The notes under the pieces: model-generated
The model's database searches: none
What the model saw: only the letters and a program-made list of their open reading frames with translations
What the model was told of the DNA's origin: nothing
Made by a program: the position numbers and the translations under genes
DNA from: a virus
Virus record (IMG/VR): IMGVR_UViG_3300017917_002250
Location: 1 to 21,986 of that record
Reading direction: 5' to 3' (one strand)
Length of the DNA: 21,986 nucleotides
Shown: positions 11,076 through 17,663 of the stretch, in pieces
Layout of the letters: each line of letters opens with the position of its first letter
How positions within the stretch are numbered: the first letter of the stretch is position 1

Positions 11076-11822
11076 TTATTGTGTTATAGATAATTTCTTA
11101 TCTGTAAGTTCTGTTTTTAATTTTAATAATTTCTCAATATACCCATTTCTTCTAAGTAATTTAAATGTTAGATTCTCATAAGAATACTCTCCACCTGATT
11201 CTAAACCACTTTGTCTAAACTCTTTTATCTTCTTCCTTAACTCTTCAATTGATTCAATGGGTCCTCTCTTTTTAATTAAATTATCGATTTTTTTAATGTA
11301 TTCTTCTGATTTTTGAAGTATCATTTTATCATCTATGTTAGGTTTTACCTCATTAGGTTCAACTAACCATTTGTTATTTAATACTGAATATACACCAGAT
11401 GAGACATGTTCTTCATTTACATCTTGAACATATAGTTCAACATCATACCCCTTAATTGTGATATTATGTTTTTGATTCCAAACATTTTTCTTAGCATCAA
11501 AAAATTCTTTTAGTAAATCTAAATTGTAATCAGTTTCTTTAAAATCAATTAGAATATGTAAATCAACATCGGAATATTGTGACCAATTATAGTTTGCTAA
11601 TGAACCTGTTAAAACTATATCATGAATGAAGAAATCGATACCCAAACTTTCAATAAAGTCATTTGAAATCTTCAATAAACTTTTTCTAATATCCTCACGC
11701 ATAAAGAATTTACCCTTATCTCCCTCGAAAATTTGGTTAGATAACGAATCCTTAGGTTTAAAAGATTTTACAATGTTCTTATCCTCTTCCTTATCCTCAA
11801 TTAATTCTTCAAATAAACTCAT
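11076..11822 (-). CDS. Nucleotidyltransferase (DNA polymerase beta superfamily)
   Basis: The 248-residue product carries the hallmark of the superfamily: LTGSLANYNWSQYSDVDLHI (71-90), with the Gly-Ser pair at 73-74 and metal-binding Asp85 and Asp87. A third acidic residue is probably in YDVELYVQD (126-134). These enzymes transfer a nucleotide from NTP to a protein, RNA or small molecule; the substrate cannot be deduced here. The C-terminal half is helical and basic and may bind the substrate. The ATG overlaps the stop of the KTSC gene (ATGA), so the two are probably made together. A type II toxin pairing is unlikely from size and context. Confidence 0.8.
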   Translation of the reverse strand: MSLFEELIEDKEEDKNIVKSFKPKDSLSNQIFEGDKGKFFMREDIRKSLLKISNDFIESLGIDFFIHDIVLTGSLANYNWSQYSDVDLHILIDFKETDYNLDLLKEFFDAKKNVWNQKHNITIKGYDVELYVQDVNEEHVSSGVYSVLNNKWLVEPNEVKPNIDDKMILQKSEEYIKKIDNLIKKRGPIESIEELRKKIKEFRQSGLESGGEYSYENLTFKLLRRNGYIEKLLKLKTELTDKKLSITQ

Positions 11823-12064
11823 CCTTTTTTGGTATACTTATGACTTCTGGCGATATTCTCGTTGAAGTATTTTCCTTGAGATTCTGCAAGTCTAAACTTA
11901 GTAAACTTATTCCAAGGAACTTTATTATATTCATAAATAGCACCATTATTAAAAGTCACCGTTAAATCCTCGGTTTCAGTATTAAATGATGCGTTTTTTA
12001 AATTTGATGAGTTGATTACAATATCAATCATCTTTCCGTTAATTGTTTCAGATATAATAGCCAT
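11819..12064 (-). CDS. KTSC-domain protein
   Basis: This 81-residue protein matches the KTSC domain. It has INSSNLKNASFNTETEDLTV, then the strand FNNGAIYEYNKVPWNKFTKF, then AESQGKYFNENIARSHKYTKKG. The domain takes its name from lysyl-tRNA synthetase C-termini and also occurs as small stand-alone proteins in phages and bacteria. Its biochemical role is not established; nucleic-acid binding has been suggested. It is translationally coupled (4-nt overlap) to the nucleotidyltransferase, suggesting a joint function. It begins after the Hsp20 terminator, so it starts a new transcript. An imperfect late-type element TATTTATT lies about 30 nt upstream. Confidence 0.85.
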   Translation of the reverse strand: MAIISETINGKMIDIVINSSNLKNASFNTETEDLTVTFNNGAIYEYNKVPWNKFTKFRLAESQGKYFNENIARSHKYTKKG

Positions 12065-15061: not shown

Positions 15062-15092
15062 TGGGGTCGGTAATCACTCCGGCCCTCATTTT
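15062..15092 (+). terminator. Terminator after the lipoprotein gene
   Basis: GGGTCGG (15064-15070) pairs with CCGGCCC (15079-15085), with one U-G pair and an eight-base loop, followed by TCATTTTT. It lies 6 nt after the stop codon. Confidence 0.75.
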
Positions 15093-15111: not shown

Positions 15112-15540
15112 ATGGATACAAATACAGAAAAACAAGGTGACTTAATACTTCTTAGAGGTTTACCCGGTTCAGGTAAATCAACTTTAGCTAAAGTTATTTT
15201 ACAATTACCATCAAATACTGAACCTGAAGTTTTATCAGCAGATGATTTTTTTGAAACTAAAGATGGTGAATATAATTTTGACCCCACAAAATTAAAAGAG
15301 GCTCACAATTATTGTCAATTTAGATGTTCTGAAAGAATGAGGCAACAAAAATCAAAAATTGTTATCGCCAATACCTTCACTCAAGAATGGGAAATGGATG
15401 AATATTTTAAAATGGCAGAAAGGTACAATTATAGAGTTCATACTGTGATTGTTGAAAATAGACACGGTAATGAAAATATCCACGGAGTCCCTGAAGATAA
15501 ACTTCAACAAATGAAGGATAGATTTCAAATCAAATTGTAA
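15112..15540 (+). CDS. P-loop polynucleotide kinase-like protein
   Basis: The 142-residue protein has Walker A GLPGSGKST (16-24), LSADDFF (41-47) with Asp44 in the position of the kinase general base, and an Arg-rich lid region RCSERMRQ. It ends after a strand-helix unit with VIVENRHGNENIHGVPEDK. This is the compact AAA_33 / T4 polynucleotide-kinase-type fold. T4 Pnkp joins such a kinase to a phosphatase domain that removes 2',3'-cyclic phosphates; that domain is missing here. The RNA ligase gene follows at once, so 5'-OH phosphorylation of cleaved RNA is the likely role. I chose ATG 15112 because an upstream in-frame TTG would place the start inside the preceding terminator. No Shine-Dalgarno sequence is present. 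Confidence 0.85.
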   Translation: MDTNTEKQGDLILLRGLPGSGKSTLAKVILQLPSNTEPEVLSADDFFETKDGEYNFDPTKLKEAHNYCQFRCSERMRQQKSKIVIANTFTQEWEMDEYFKMAERYNYRVHTVIVENRHGNENIHGVPEDKLQQMKDRFQIKL

Positions 15541-15607
15541 ATGAGTCAATTCATTGAATCTTTTATCAAATCAGTAAACCCACCACAAAAAACACCAATC
15601 AAAAACT

Positions 15608-16786
15608 GTGTTAAGTACATTAGAAAAATATTACAAAGATGGTTTGTTACAAAAACAAACACACCCAACTCTTGATTTAACTATTTGGAATTATTCTCCA
15701 AAAGTTCAATATGAAAGGTTATGGGATGATATTACTACACAGTGTCGAGGATTGGTCACAAATTCCAAAGGAGATATCGTTGCAAGACCATTTAAGAAGT
15801 TCTTTAATTATGAAGAACACAAACCTGAAGATATTCCAAACGAAGACTTTGTGGTTTACGAAAAGATGGACGGTTCTTTAGGTATCCTTTTCTATTACGA
15901 ATATGAATTAAGTGACGAGAGAAGATATAACATATGGTTCAATAACAATTACGAGACAGGAATGGAAAGATTCTTTGATCCAAACAATTTACCTAATTTT
16001 GATGACTCGTATTATGAACCAACACCAAAAACAAAAGGTGAGTGGATAATGGCAACTCGTGGTTCATTTACATCACCACAAGCAATTAAAGGAAAGGAAA
16101 TTCTTAATAAACATGACATTAGTCCATTAAGAAAAGACAACACATATTTGTTTGAAATTATCTATCCTGAAAATAGAATTGTTGTTGATTATGGTAATGA
16201 AGAAAAATTGGTGGTTCTTGGTGCAATTCATACTGAAACAGGTGACGAAGTATCAAATAGTGCATTGTTCACCATGACTGGATTAGGATTTGAAGTTGTA
16301 ACAACATATAAGACTTGGGGAGAAGGGTATGATTTACTTAAGGAAGAAATATCAAAAGATAAAGAAGGTTATGTAATTCGTTTTAAGAGTGGTTTTCGTA
16401 TGAAAATCAAAGGTGATGAATATAAACGACTTCATCGAATTTTAACTAACATATCTAATAGAGATATTTTTGAATATGTTAAAGAAGGAAAACCTTTAGA
16501 TGAAATATTAGATAAAGTACCTGACGAATTTTACAATTGGGTAAAAGAAACTAAAGAGATGTTTGAATTACAATTTAAAACGATAGATTTAGAATATCGT
16601 TTAATATTTAATAATATAATTGAAAATAATAAAGTCACAGATAAAAAAACATTTGCACAATATGCTCTTAGTTATAATAACTCTTCAATTTTATTTGCAA
16701 TGTTTGATAAAAAAAATTATAAACACATAATTTGGAAAATATTATATCCAACTTATTCAAAACCATTTAAGAAAGATGAAAATTGA
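15608..16786 (+). CDS. RNA ligase, T4 Rnl1-type
   Basis: The 392-residue protein shows the nucleotidyltransferase motifs of Rnl1-family ligases: motif I KMDGS with the adenylated Lys at 86 (86-90), motif IIIa FEIIYPENRIVVDY (182-195), motif IV EGYVIRF (253-259) and motif V MKIK (265-268). CRGLV (46-50) and RPFKKFFNYEE (60-70) upstream are also typical. The enzyme seals 5'-phosphate and 3'-OH RNA ends; in T4 it repairs tRNAs cut by host anticodon nucleases. The start is GTG, placing the conserved QTHP at residue 17 as expected; no in-frame ATG lies upstream before a stop. It is followed, with an 11-nt overlap, by the cREC-like gene, and preceded by the kinase gene. Confidence 0.93.
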   Translation: MLSTLEKYYKDGLLQKQTHPTLDLTIWNYSPKVQYERLWDDITTQCRGLVTNSKGDIVARPFKKFFNYEEHKPEDIPNEDFVVYEKMDGSLGILFYYEYELSDERRYNIWFNNNYETGMERFFDPNNLPNFDDSYYEPTPKTKGEWIMATRGSFTSPQAIKGKEILNKHDISPLRKDNTYLFEIIYPENRIVVDYGNEEKLVVLGAIHTETGDEVSNSALFTMTGLGFEVVTTYKTWGEGYDLLKEEISKDKEGYVIRFKSGFRMKIKGDEYKRLHRILTNISNRDIFEYVKEGKPLDEILDKVPDEFYNWVKETKEMFELQFKTIDLEYRLIFNNIIENNKVTDKKTFAQYALSYNNSSILFAMFDKKNYKHIIWKILYPTYSKPFKKDEN

Positions 16787-17261
16787 TAAAAAAAGACTTT
16801 ATTTAGATGACGTTAGAACACCTAAAGATAATGATTGGATTGTTGTTAGAAACTATGATCAATTTGTTTCTAATATTAGATTGAATGGATTAGGGTCTTA
16901 TGAAGTTATATCGTTAGACCATGATTTAGGTGAAGAATCTATGATTGAATATTACACAAACGTAAAAAATAATTATGAATTAAATTATGAAAACATTGTT
17001 AATGAAAAAACAGGTTATGATTGTTGTAAATTCTTAGTTAGTGAGAGTATGAGTAAAAATATTCCATTACCACAAATATATGTACACTCAGCAAATCCAA
17101 TTGGTAGTGCAAATATGATGGGATACATTAACAATTATTTAATGAATTGTAATTTACCACAAACGTGCATTAGAGTGAAAATTGAACATACCATTGATGA
17201 ACCATTACAACTTTCTCCCGAAGCAAGAAAGGCAAGATGGGACAGAAATAGTGACAAATAA
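16776..17261 (+). CDS. cREC-like cyclic-phosphate processing receiver domain protein
   Basis: The 161-residue protein has LYLDDVRTP (8-16, Asp11/Asp12), ISLDHDLGEE (45-54, Asp48/His49/Asp50), TGYDCCKFLV and IYVHSANPIGSANMMGYI (101-118). This pattern is that of the receiver-like domain predicted to process cyclic phosphates in RNA-repair loci (cREC). The Asp and His residues would hold a metal. Because the kinase gene here lacks the phosphatase/cyclic-phosphodiesterase half of T4 Pnkp, this protein could supply the 3'-end healing step before ligation. That is inference from context. It starts inside the end of the ligase gene, which implies coupled translation. Activity of the family is, as far as I recall, still a prediction. 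Confidence 0.82.
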   Translation: MKIDKKRLYLDDVRTPKDNDWIVVRNYDQFVSNIRLNGLGSYEVISLDHDLGEESMIEYYTNVKNNYELNYENIVNEKTGYDCCKFLVSESMSKNIPLPQIYVHSANPIGSANMMGYINNYLMNCNLPQTCIRVKIEHTIDEPLQLSPEARKARWDRNSDK

Positions 17262-17312: not shown

Positions 17313-17663
17313 ATGGCATACACTAGCAAAACAAGAACACCATATAAAAAAATGTACATAAAAGGAAAGTATGAAGATTTTAGCGACTTTTATGATGTAA
17401 ATAAAAAACCCATATATGATAACATATTTGAAGTTTTTAAAGGGTTTGAAGGGAACAAAAAAAGAGTCTTAACTTTATATATTCAAGCAATTATACAGGG
17501 TTTAGAGTGGGATACTGAGTTCAAATTCAATAGAACCGATACCATTGTATTAACAAGAGACGTTTTACCATATTTTGAAAGTATTGAGGATTATGAAAAA
17601 TGTGCTGAAATAAAAAATTTATATGAAGTATTGACAAATAAAAAAGAATTATCTATAATTTAA
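17313..17663 (+). CDS. Unknown protein, 116 aa
   Basis: I do not recognise this protein. It has a basic, Thr/Lys-rich start (MAYTSKTRTPYKKMYIKGKYE) and an otherwise alpha-helical, acidic/aromatic character. FSDFYDVNKKPIYDNIFEVF and VLTLYIQAIIQGLEWDTEF are followed by RTDTIVLTRDVLPYF and a final helix with EKCAEIKNLYEVL. No membrane segment or catalytic motif is visible. It lies 51 nt after the cREC-like gene without a terminator between them, so it may belong to the same transcript as the RNA-repair genes. It ends just before a hairpin pair and terminator. Function remains open. Confidence 0.7.
   Translation: MAYTSKTRTPYKKMYIKGKYEDFSDFYDVNKKPIYDNIFEVFKGFEGNKKRVLTLYIQAIIQGLEWDTEFKFNRTDTIVLTRDVLPYFESIEDYEKCAEIKNLYEVLTNKKELSII

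Follow-up and report, generated by a model that had tools for sequence, protein, structure and literature searches.

A compact kinase, RNA ligase and cREC gene cassette in a T4-like phage record, with a predicted role in RNA end repair

The window, meaning the whole 21,986-base virus record analysed here, carries genes for a portal protein, a terminase and a prohead protease of the T4 type (Pfam, PHROG). Its virus is T4-like, belongs to an uncultured lineage and infects bacteria, and relatives indicate that the host is probably a member of the Bacteroidota; the cREC protein encoded here is close by sequence (58% identity) to that of a cultured relative with a Flavobacterium host. The cassette under study consists of three ORFs encoding a small kinase (PNK), an RNA ligase (RNL) and a receiver-like protein (cREC), and lies directly 3' of a terminator-like hairpin (-15.5 kcal/mol; z -3.7 versus shuffles). 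The coordinates of these and neighboring features are collected in Table 1.

Table 1. Features of the cassette and its surroundings in the window.
Feature	Position	Strand	Description	Matches
Nucleotidyltransferase-like gene	11076..11822	-	Conserved protein	NTP_transf_2 (weak), phrog_36119
KTSC-domain gene	11819..12064		Adjoins the nucleotidyltransferase-like gene	
Hairpin	15063..15086	+	Terminator-like; 8 pairs, 6 GC, T-rich tail	
PNK	15112..15540	+	Polynucleotide-kinase-like P-loop protein, kinase half only, 142 aa	AAA_33, phrog_2071, phrog_505
Small ORF	15541..15675	+	Putative, 44 aa (MSQFIESF...IRKILQRWFV...); starts directly 3' of the kinase stop, overlaps the beginning of the ligase gene in a different frame	
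RNL	15608..16786	+	T4 Rnl1-type RNA ligase, GTG start, 392 aa	PF09511, phrog_562, 2c5u
cREC	16776..17261	+	Receiver-like protein, 161 aa, inserted helix 54-66 and C-terminal tail	PF20274
ORF4	17313..17663	+	Conserved downstream of cREC or ligase	

The first-pass annotation had described three adjacent, partly overlapping genes. Adjacency was borne out, whereas overlap was found only between the ligase and cREC genes (11 nt, 16776-16786); a gap of 67 nt lies between the kinase and ligase genes and contains the start of a conserved small ORF. This small ORF keeps its start, N-terminus and position in 44 loci; at 62 other loci the same place is taken by an 80-82-aa form with a pN/pS of about 0.37. 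It may represent a gene for a small protein that has been truncated onto the ligase. Upstream, the nucleotidyltransferase-like gene was considered as RlaP and rejected, given the absence of an RlaP match in Pfam. Downstream, the ORF4 model (pLDDT 87) returned no convincing fold match, and ORF4 was discarded as a fourth cassette component because, although invariably close by, it has diverged in step with the backbone Clp gene rather than with cREC.

The classes of the kinase and the ligase were assigned by homology. PNK matched Pfam AAA_33 (2e-17) and the PHROG families phrog_2071 (9e-41) and phrog_505, polynucleotide kinase (3.6e-9), with the latter match covering only positions 3-140 of the 295-position profile, which correspond to its kinase half. 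Its P-loop (G16..K22), D44 and lid R117 are conserved in 68 distinct relatives. The protein stops after the kinase domain; the N-terminal P-loop kinase of T4 Pnkp is therefore present and the C-terminal HAD phosphatase is not, in agreement with the earlier description of a kinase lacking the phosphatase half. The proposed Rnl1-type ligase was likewise confirmed, as RNL matched the entire PF09511 (RNA_lig_T4_1) model (8e-16; 1-227 of 227), the PHROG RNA ligase family phrog_562 (1.2e-67) and the solved structure of T4 Rnl1 (2c5u; 9.7e-13). The nucleotidyltransferase motifs are invariant, namely K86-x-D88-G89 with the catalytic lysine, E183, E253-G and K266-x-K268, and RNA sealing activity would be expected from its family. 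Right after the catalytic-lysine motif, at residues about 97-144, RNL has an insert of ~45 aa that some ligases of the lineage share and others do not. Five relatives (L048-L050, L052 and L053) have a ligase gene interrupted by a segment of ~1.1 kb (8244-9357 in L049) that includes a homing-endonuclease-like ORF; a search of the L049 segment with Rfam intron models, with a homing intron in mind, gave no match.

The third gene had been called cREC-like, and this identification held: cREC matched PF20274 (cREC_REC) at 1.4e-22 and 80.6 bits, well above the cut-off of 27, over profile positions 2-88 of 88. The AlphaFold2 model (mean pLDDT 93.3) has a receiver-like fold. Foldseek against the PDB returned mainly receiver domains, which were weak by E-value (best 4.7e-3) with a probability of 0.98 and TM of about 0.4-0.5, and viral cREC models were matched strongly (E 3.8e-8). 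Across 77 phage and bacterial sequences, the invariant residues were D11, D12, R14, D48, H49, D50, L51, G52, H104 and N107, which include all four aspartates (Asp11, Asp12, Asp48 and Asp50) singled out beforehand. The inserted helix and the C-terminal tail are additions of the phage protein relative to the bacterial form (~100 aa). Diverse bacteria commonly carry short, highly conserved cREC genes of this size (L180-L259), and no comparable ligase or kinase was found within ~6 kb of these bacterial loci. As of 2022, cREC was experimentally uncharacterized, with cyclic-phosphate processing standing as a prediction (PMC9503650); our full-text literature search, whose coverage was not complete, found no experimental work on it.

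Among 61 distinct viral ligase rows, cREC lies just downstream of the ligase in 44, elsewhere on the locus in one, and is absent from 14, with two rows ending too early to decide; the fraction of 44/61 is biased upward because the ligase set was partly seeded with cREC. The presence of cREC changes at least eight times on the ligase tree, and close relatives of the window include some with kinase and ligase and no cREC. Once the backbone Clp gene was controlled for, the pairwise distances of PNK, RNL and cREC across 48 loci remained correlated with one another (partial r 0.34-0.47, permutation p 0.001), in a test that is lenient for related sequences; the backbone-side nucleotidyltransferase gene was also partially correlated, at 0.33 with cREC. 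Kinase, ligase and cREC also follow one another in this order in a different genomic context, without the Clp and nucleotidyltransferase genes (L012-L016 and L058). Given the recurrence downstream of 44 ligases and the co-variation of the three proteins beyond the backbone Clp gene, the arrangement is more than chance, which supports the functional linkage proposed for the three genes; by comparative genomics, cREC belongs with the kinase and the ligase. In a few relatives, genes are inserted between ligase and cREC (L038 9193-10014, L043 8866-9486, L128 11022-11645), and those of L038 and L043 had no Pfam match.

In some relatives (ARRANGEMENTS), a calcineurin-like phosphoesterase, here termed MPE-A, joins the cassette. 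It lies between kinase and ligase with cREC also present (L012-L016, L058), ahead of cREC and kinase (L070), or immediately ahead of kinase and ligase where cREC is missing (L149, L152); in L160, which also lacks cREC, it is close by. In several phage groups, members of the MPE-A family (L012 8165-8818 and relatives) accompany the kinase, the ligase or cREC. A strict exchange of cREC for the calcineurin-like enzyme, suggested by L149, L152 and L160, was rejected, since L012-L016, L058 and L070 have both and G016-G018 neither. Unrelated cultured phages add further combinations: the V5-like Enterobacter phage EC152 carries a calcineurin-like phosphoesterase, Rnl1, cREC, kinase and SIR2; Ochrobactrum phage vB_OspM_OC (OC) a free HAD_PNKP phosphatase, cREC, Rnl1, kinase and a metallophosphatase; and Streptomyces phage NootNoot cREC, Rnl1 and a full kinase-HAD Pnkp. 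Thus, kinase and Rnl1 are repeatedly accompanied by cREC irrespective of which phosphatase the phage has, and cREC need not itself be the phosphatase because it co-occurs with established RNA phosphatases. The first-pass view of a three-protein split of the T4 Pnkp/Rnl1 system does not survive these comparisons: cREC has no relationship to the HAD domain of Pnkp, some close relatives of the window lack cREC, and in other phages cREC stands beside an intact Pnkp (NootNoot), a free HAD_PNKP (OC) or a calcineurin-like phosphoesterase (EC152, L012, L070). cREC was also rejected as the lost Pnkp phosphatase, as NootNoot and OC carry both.

We surveyed 23 large related records (71 to 336 kb) for 3'-end enzymes; their completeness is not established, and absences are suggestive only. 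HAD_PNKP, KptA and RlaP gave no match in the 23 records and 2H nothing above cut-off, while MPE-A occurred in nine and HAD_SAK_2 (Swiss-army-knife HAD) in six, which coincide exactly with the records that carry cREC together with MPE-A. Eleven cREC-bearing records, which may be incomplete, have the window arrangement (G001 of 151 kb, G002, G005-G010 including G009 of 217 kb, G012, G019 and G022), and none of them contained HAD_PNKP, HAD_SAK_2, 2H, KptA or a linked-type metallophosphoesterase. Because none of these enzymes appeared in the 11 records, cREC is suggested as the main phage candidate for 3'-end healing in window-type cassettes. Three further records (G016-G018) carry kinase and ligase and lack cREC, MPE-A, HAD_SAK and the other 3'-end enzymes sought, except for an unlinked MPPED-like metallophosphoesterase that several cREC-bearing records also have. 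The 3' ends could instead be processed by host enzymes or by further unlinked phosphoesterases.

Rnl1 requires a 5'-phosphate and a 3'-OH, and many RNases leave a 5'-OH and a 2',3'-cyclic phosphate. Our preferred reading, to which we assign a probability of about 0.5, is that the cassette is an RNA end-healing and sealing unit in which cREC acts on a cyclic or terminal phosphate, a chemistry that is itself predicted. The small kinase would phosphorylate the 5'-OH ends of cleaved RNA, and the Rnl1 ligase would adenylate the 5'-phosphate end and then join it to the 3'-OH end. As the kinase supplies the 5'-phosphate and a 3'-OH is still needed, cREC is the obvious candidate for the other end, where it would most likely open the 2',3'-cyclic phosphate and perhaps also remove the resulting monophosphate. 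Its active site may be formed by the Asp11/Asp12/Asp48/Asp50 cluster with His104/Ser105. The purpose is likely the reversal of RNA cleavage by host defense or toxin RNases during infection, possibly including the anticodon nucleases put forward in the first-pass annotation. We infer the chemistry of cREC, the RNA target and the defense countered alike. Against this reading stand the relatives that keep kinase and ligase without cREC, G016-G018 among them, the established RNA phosphatases found alongside cREC, and the frequent occurrence of cREC away from RNA ligases in both phages and bacteria. A stronger version, in which cREC by itself does all 3'-end healing, acting both as a cyclic phosphodiesterase and as a phosphatase and so taking the place of the Pnkp HAD domain as well as of the calcineurin-like enzyme, appears unlikely; if true, it would add a third, aspartate-based class of RNA 3'-end-healing enzymes with a receiver fold.

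The strongest competing explanation retains RNA mending by the kinase and the ligase and has cREC act on soluble NAD-derived or cyclic nucleotide signals from host defense, for example ADP-ribose cyclic phosphate or cyclic ADP-ribose, rather than on RNA ends; we regard it as possible and clearly less probable than the RNA end-healing reading. cREC is widespread in phages and bacteria, and in other phages it is often fused to Nudix or located near Macro and SIR2 genes (PMC7824862, PMC9503650). The jumbo phage CBB and Cellulophaga contexts of cREC, the bacterial cREC genes with neither such a ligase nor such a kinase nearby, and the coexistence of cREC with dedicated RNA phosphatases all lean in the same direction. 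On the other hand, no SIR2, Macro or Nudix gene was recognized beside the window cassette among the ORFs scanned with Pfam, and cREC co-varies with the kinase and the ligase.

A non-catalytic role is rather improbable in our estimation: cREC would be a sensor or adaptor that controls or tethers the kinase and the ligase, either by binding RNA ends or through phosphorylation of Asp48. Such a role would fit a receiver fold that retains the acidic pair and the phospho-acceptor position, and a gene that can be lost while kinase and ligase stay. However, the invariant R14, H49, D50, H104 and N107 are atypical of signaling receivers and suggest an active site, and no association with histidine kinases was found in the published survey (PMC9503650). 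Finally, a ligase serving tail-fiber attachment, or a cassette acting on DNA, with RNA repair not the main role, is very improbable, for although the PHROG name of the ligase family, "RNA ligase and tail fiber protein attachment catalyst", reflects a second role of T4 Rnl1, the conserved pairing with the kinase and with cREC or phosphoesterases serves no role in tail assembly and the active-site motifs of the ligase are all retained.

If cREC heals RNA ends as the preferred reading has it, the receiver fold, best known from signaling, would also be that of an RNA-repair enzyme, and phages would have an extra interchangeable module against RNA-cleaving immunity beside the HAD, 2H, KptA and calcineurin-like enzymes. 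With cREC as the main visible 3'-end-healing candidate among three genes, the window cassette offers the simplest setting for testing this protein.

Several elements of this picture have been predicted before. Predictions published in 2021-2022 already covered cREC itself and placed it in operons with phage RNA ligases, kinases, sirtuins and calcineurin-like enzymes, and Iyer and colleagues proposed cREC as a 3'-end processor for phages in general (PMC7824862, PMC9503650). The V5-like phage neighborhood was described as comprising a sirtuin, a T4-like RNA ligase, cREC, a nucleotide kinase and occasionally a calcineurin-like phosphoesterase (PMC9503650). Like the window, V5-like phages (EC152) have a kinase-only P-loop protein, Rnl1 and cREC close together; in the window, the gene order is different, neither a sirtuin nor a phosphoesterase lies beside the cassette (the Pfam scan of ORFs found no sirtuin gene in the cluster), and cREC has 161 aa with its inserted helix and tail, in contrast to 114 aa in EC152. 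Phage OC likewise encodes kinase, cREC and Rnl1 as individual genes of a tight operon, but it places cREC before the ligase and additionally encodes a metallophosphatase and a free HAD phosphatase of the Pnkp type. T4 resembles the window in its 5' kinase (Pnkp) and Rnl1 sealing enzyme, but the Pnkp HAD phosphatase is absent from the window and from the 23 large related records, and the fold of cREC differs from it. In the bacterial Pnkp of the Clostridium thermocellum type, a metallophosphoesterase, a kinase and a ligase are combined in a single protein. This combination is paralleled by L149, L152 and L160, with a calcineurin-like gene near or upstream of kinase and ligase, whereas the window has no such phosphoesterase near the cassette, separate proteins and a ligase of the Rnl1 type. 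The window cassette is thus a minimal version of an already predicted phage RNA-repair kit, and this minimal form is its distinctive feature.
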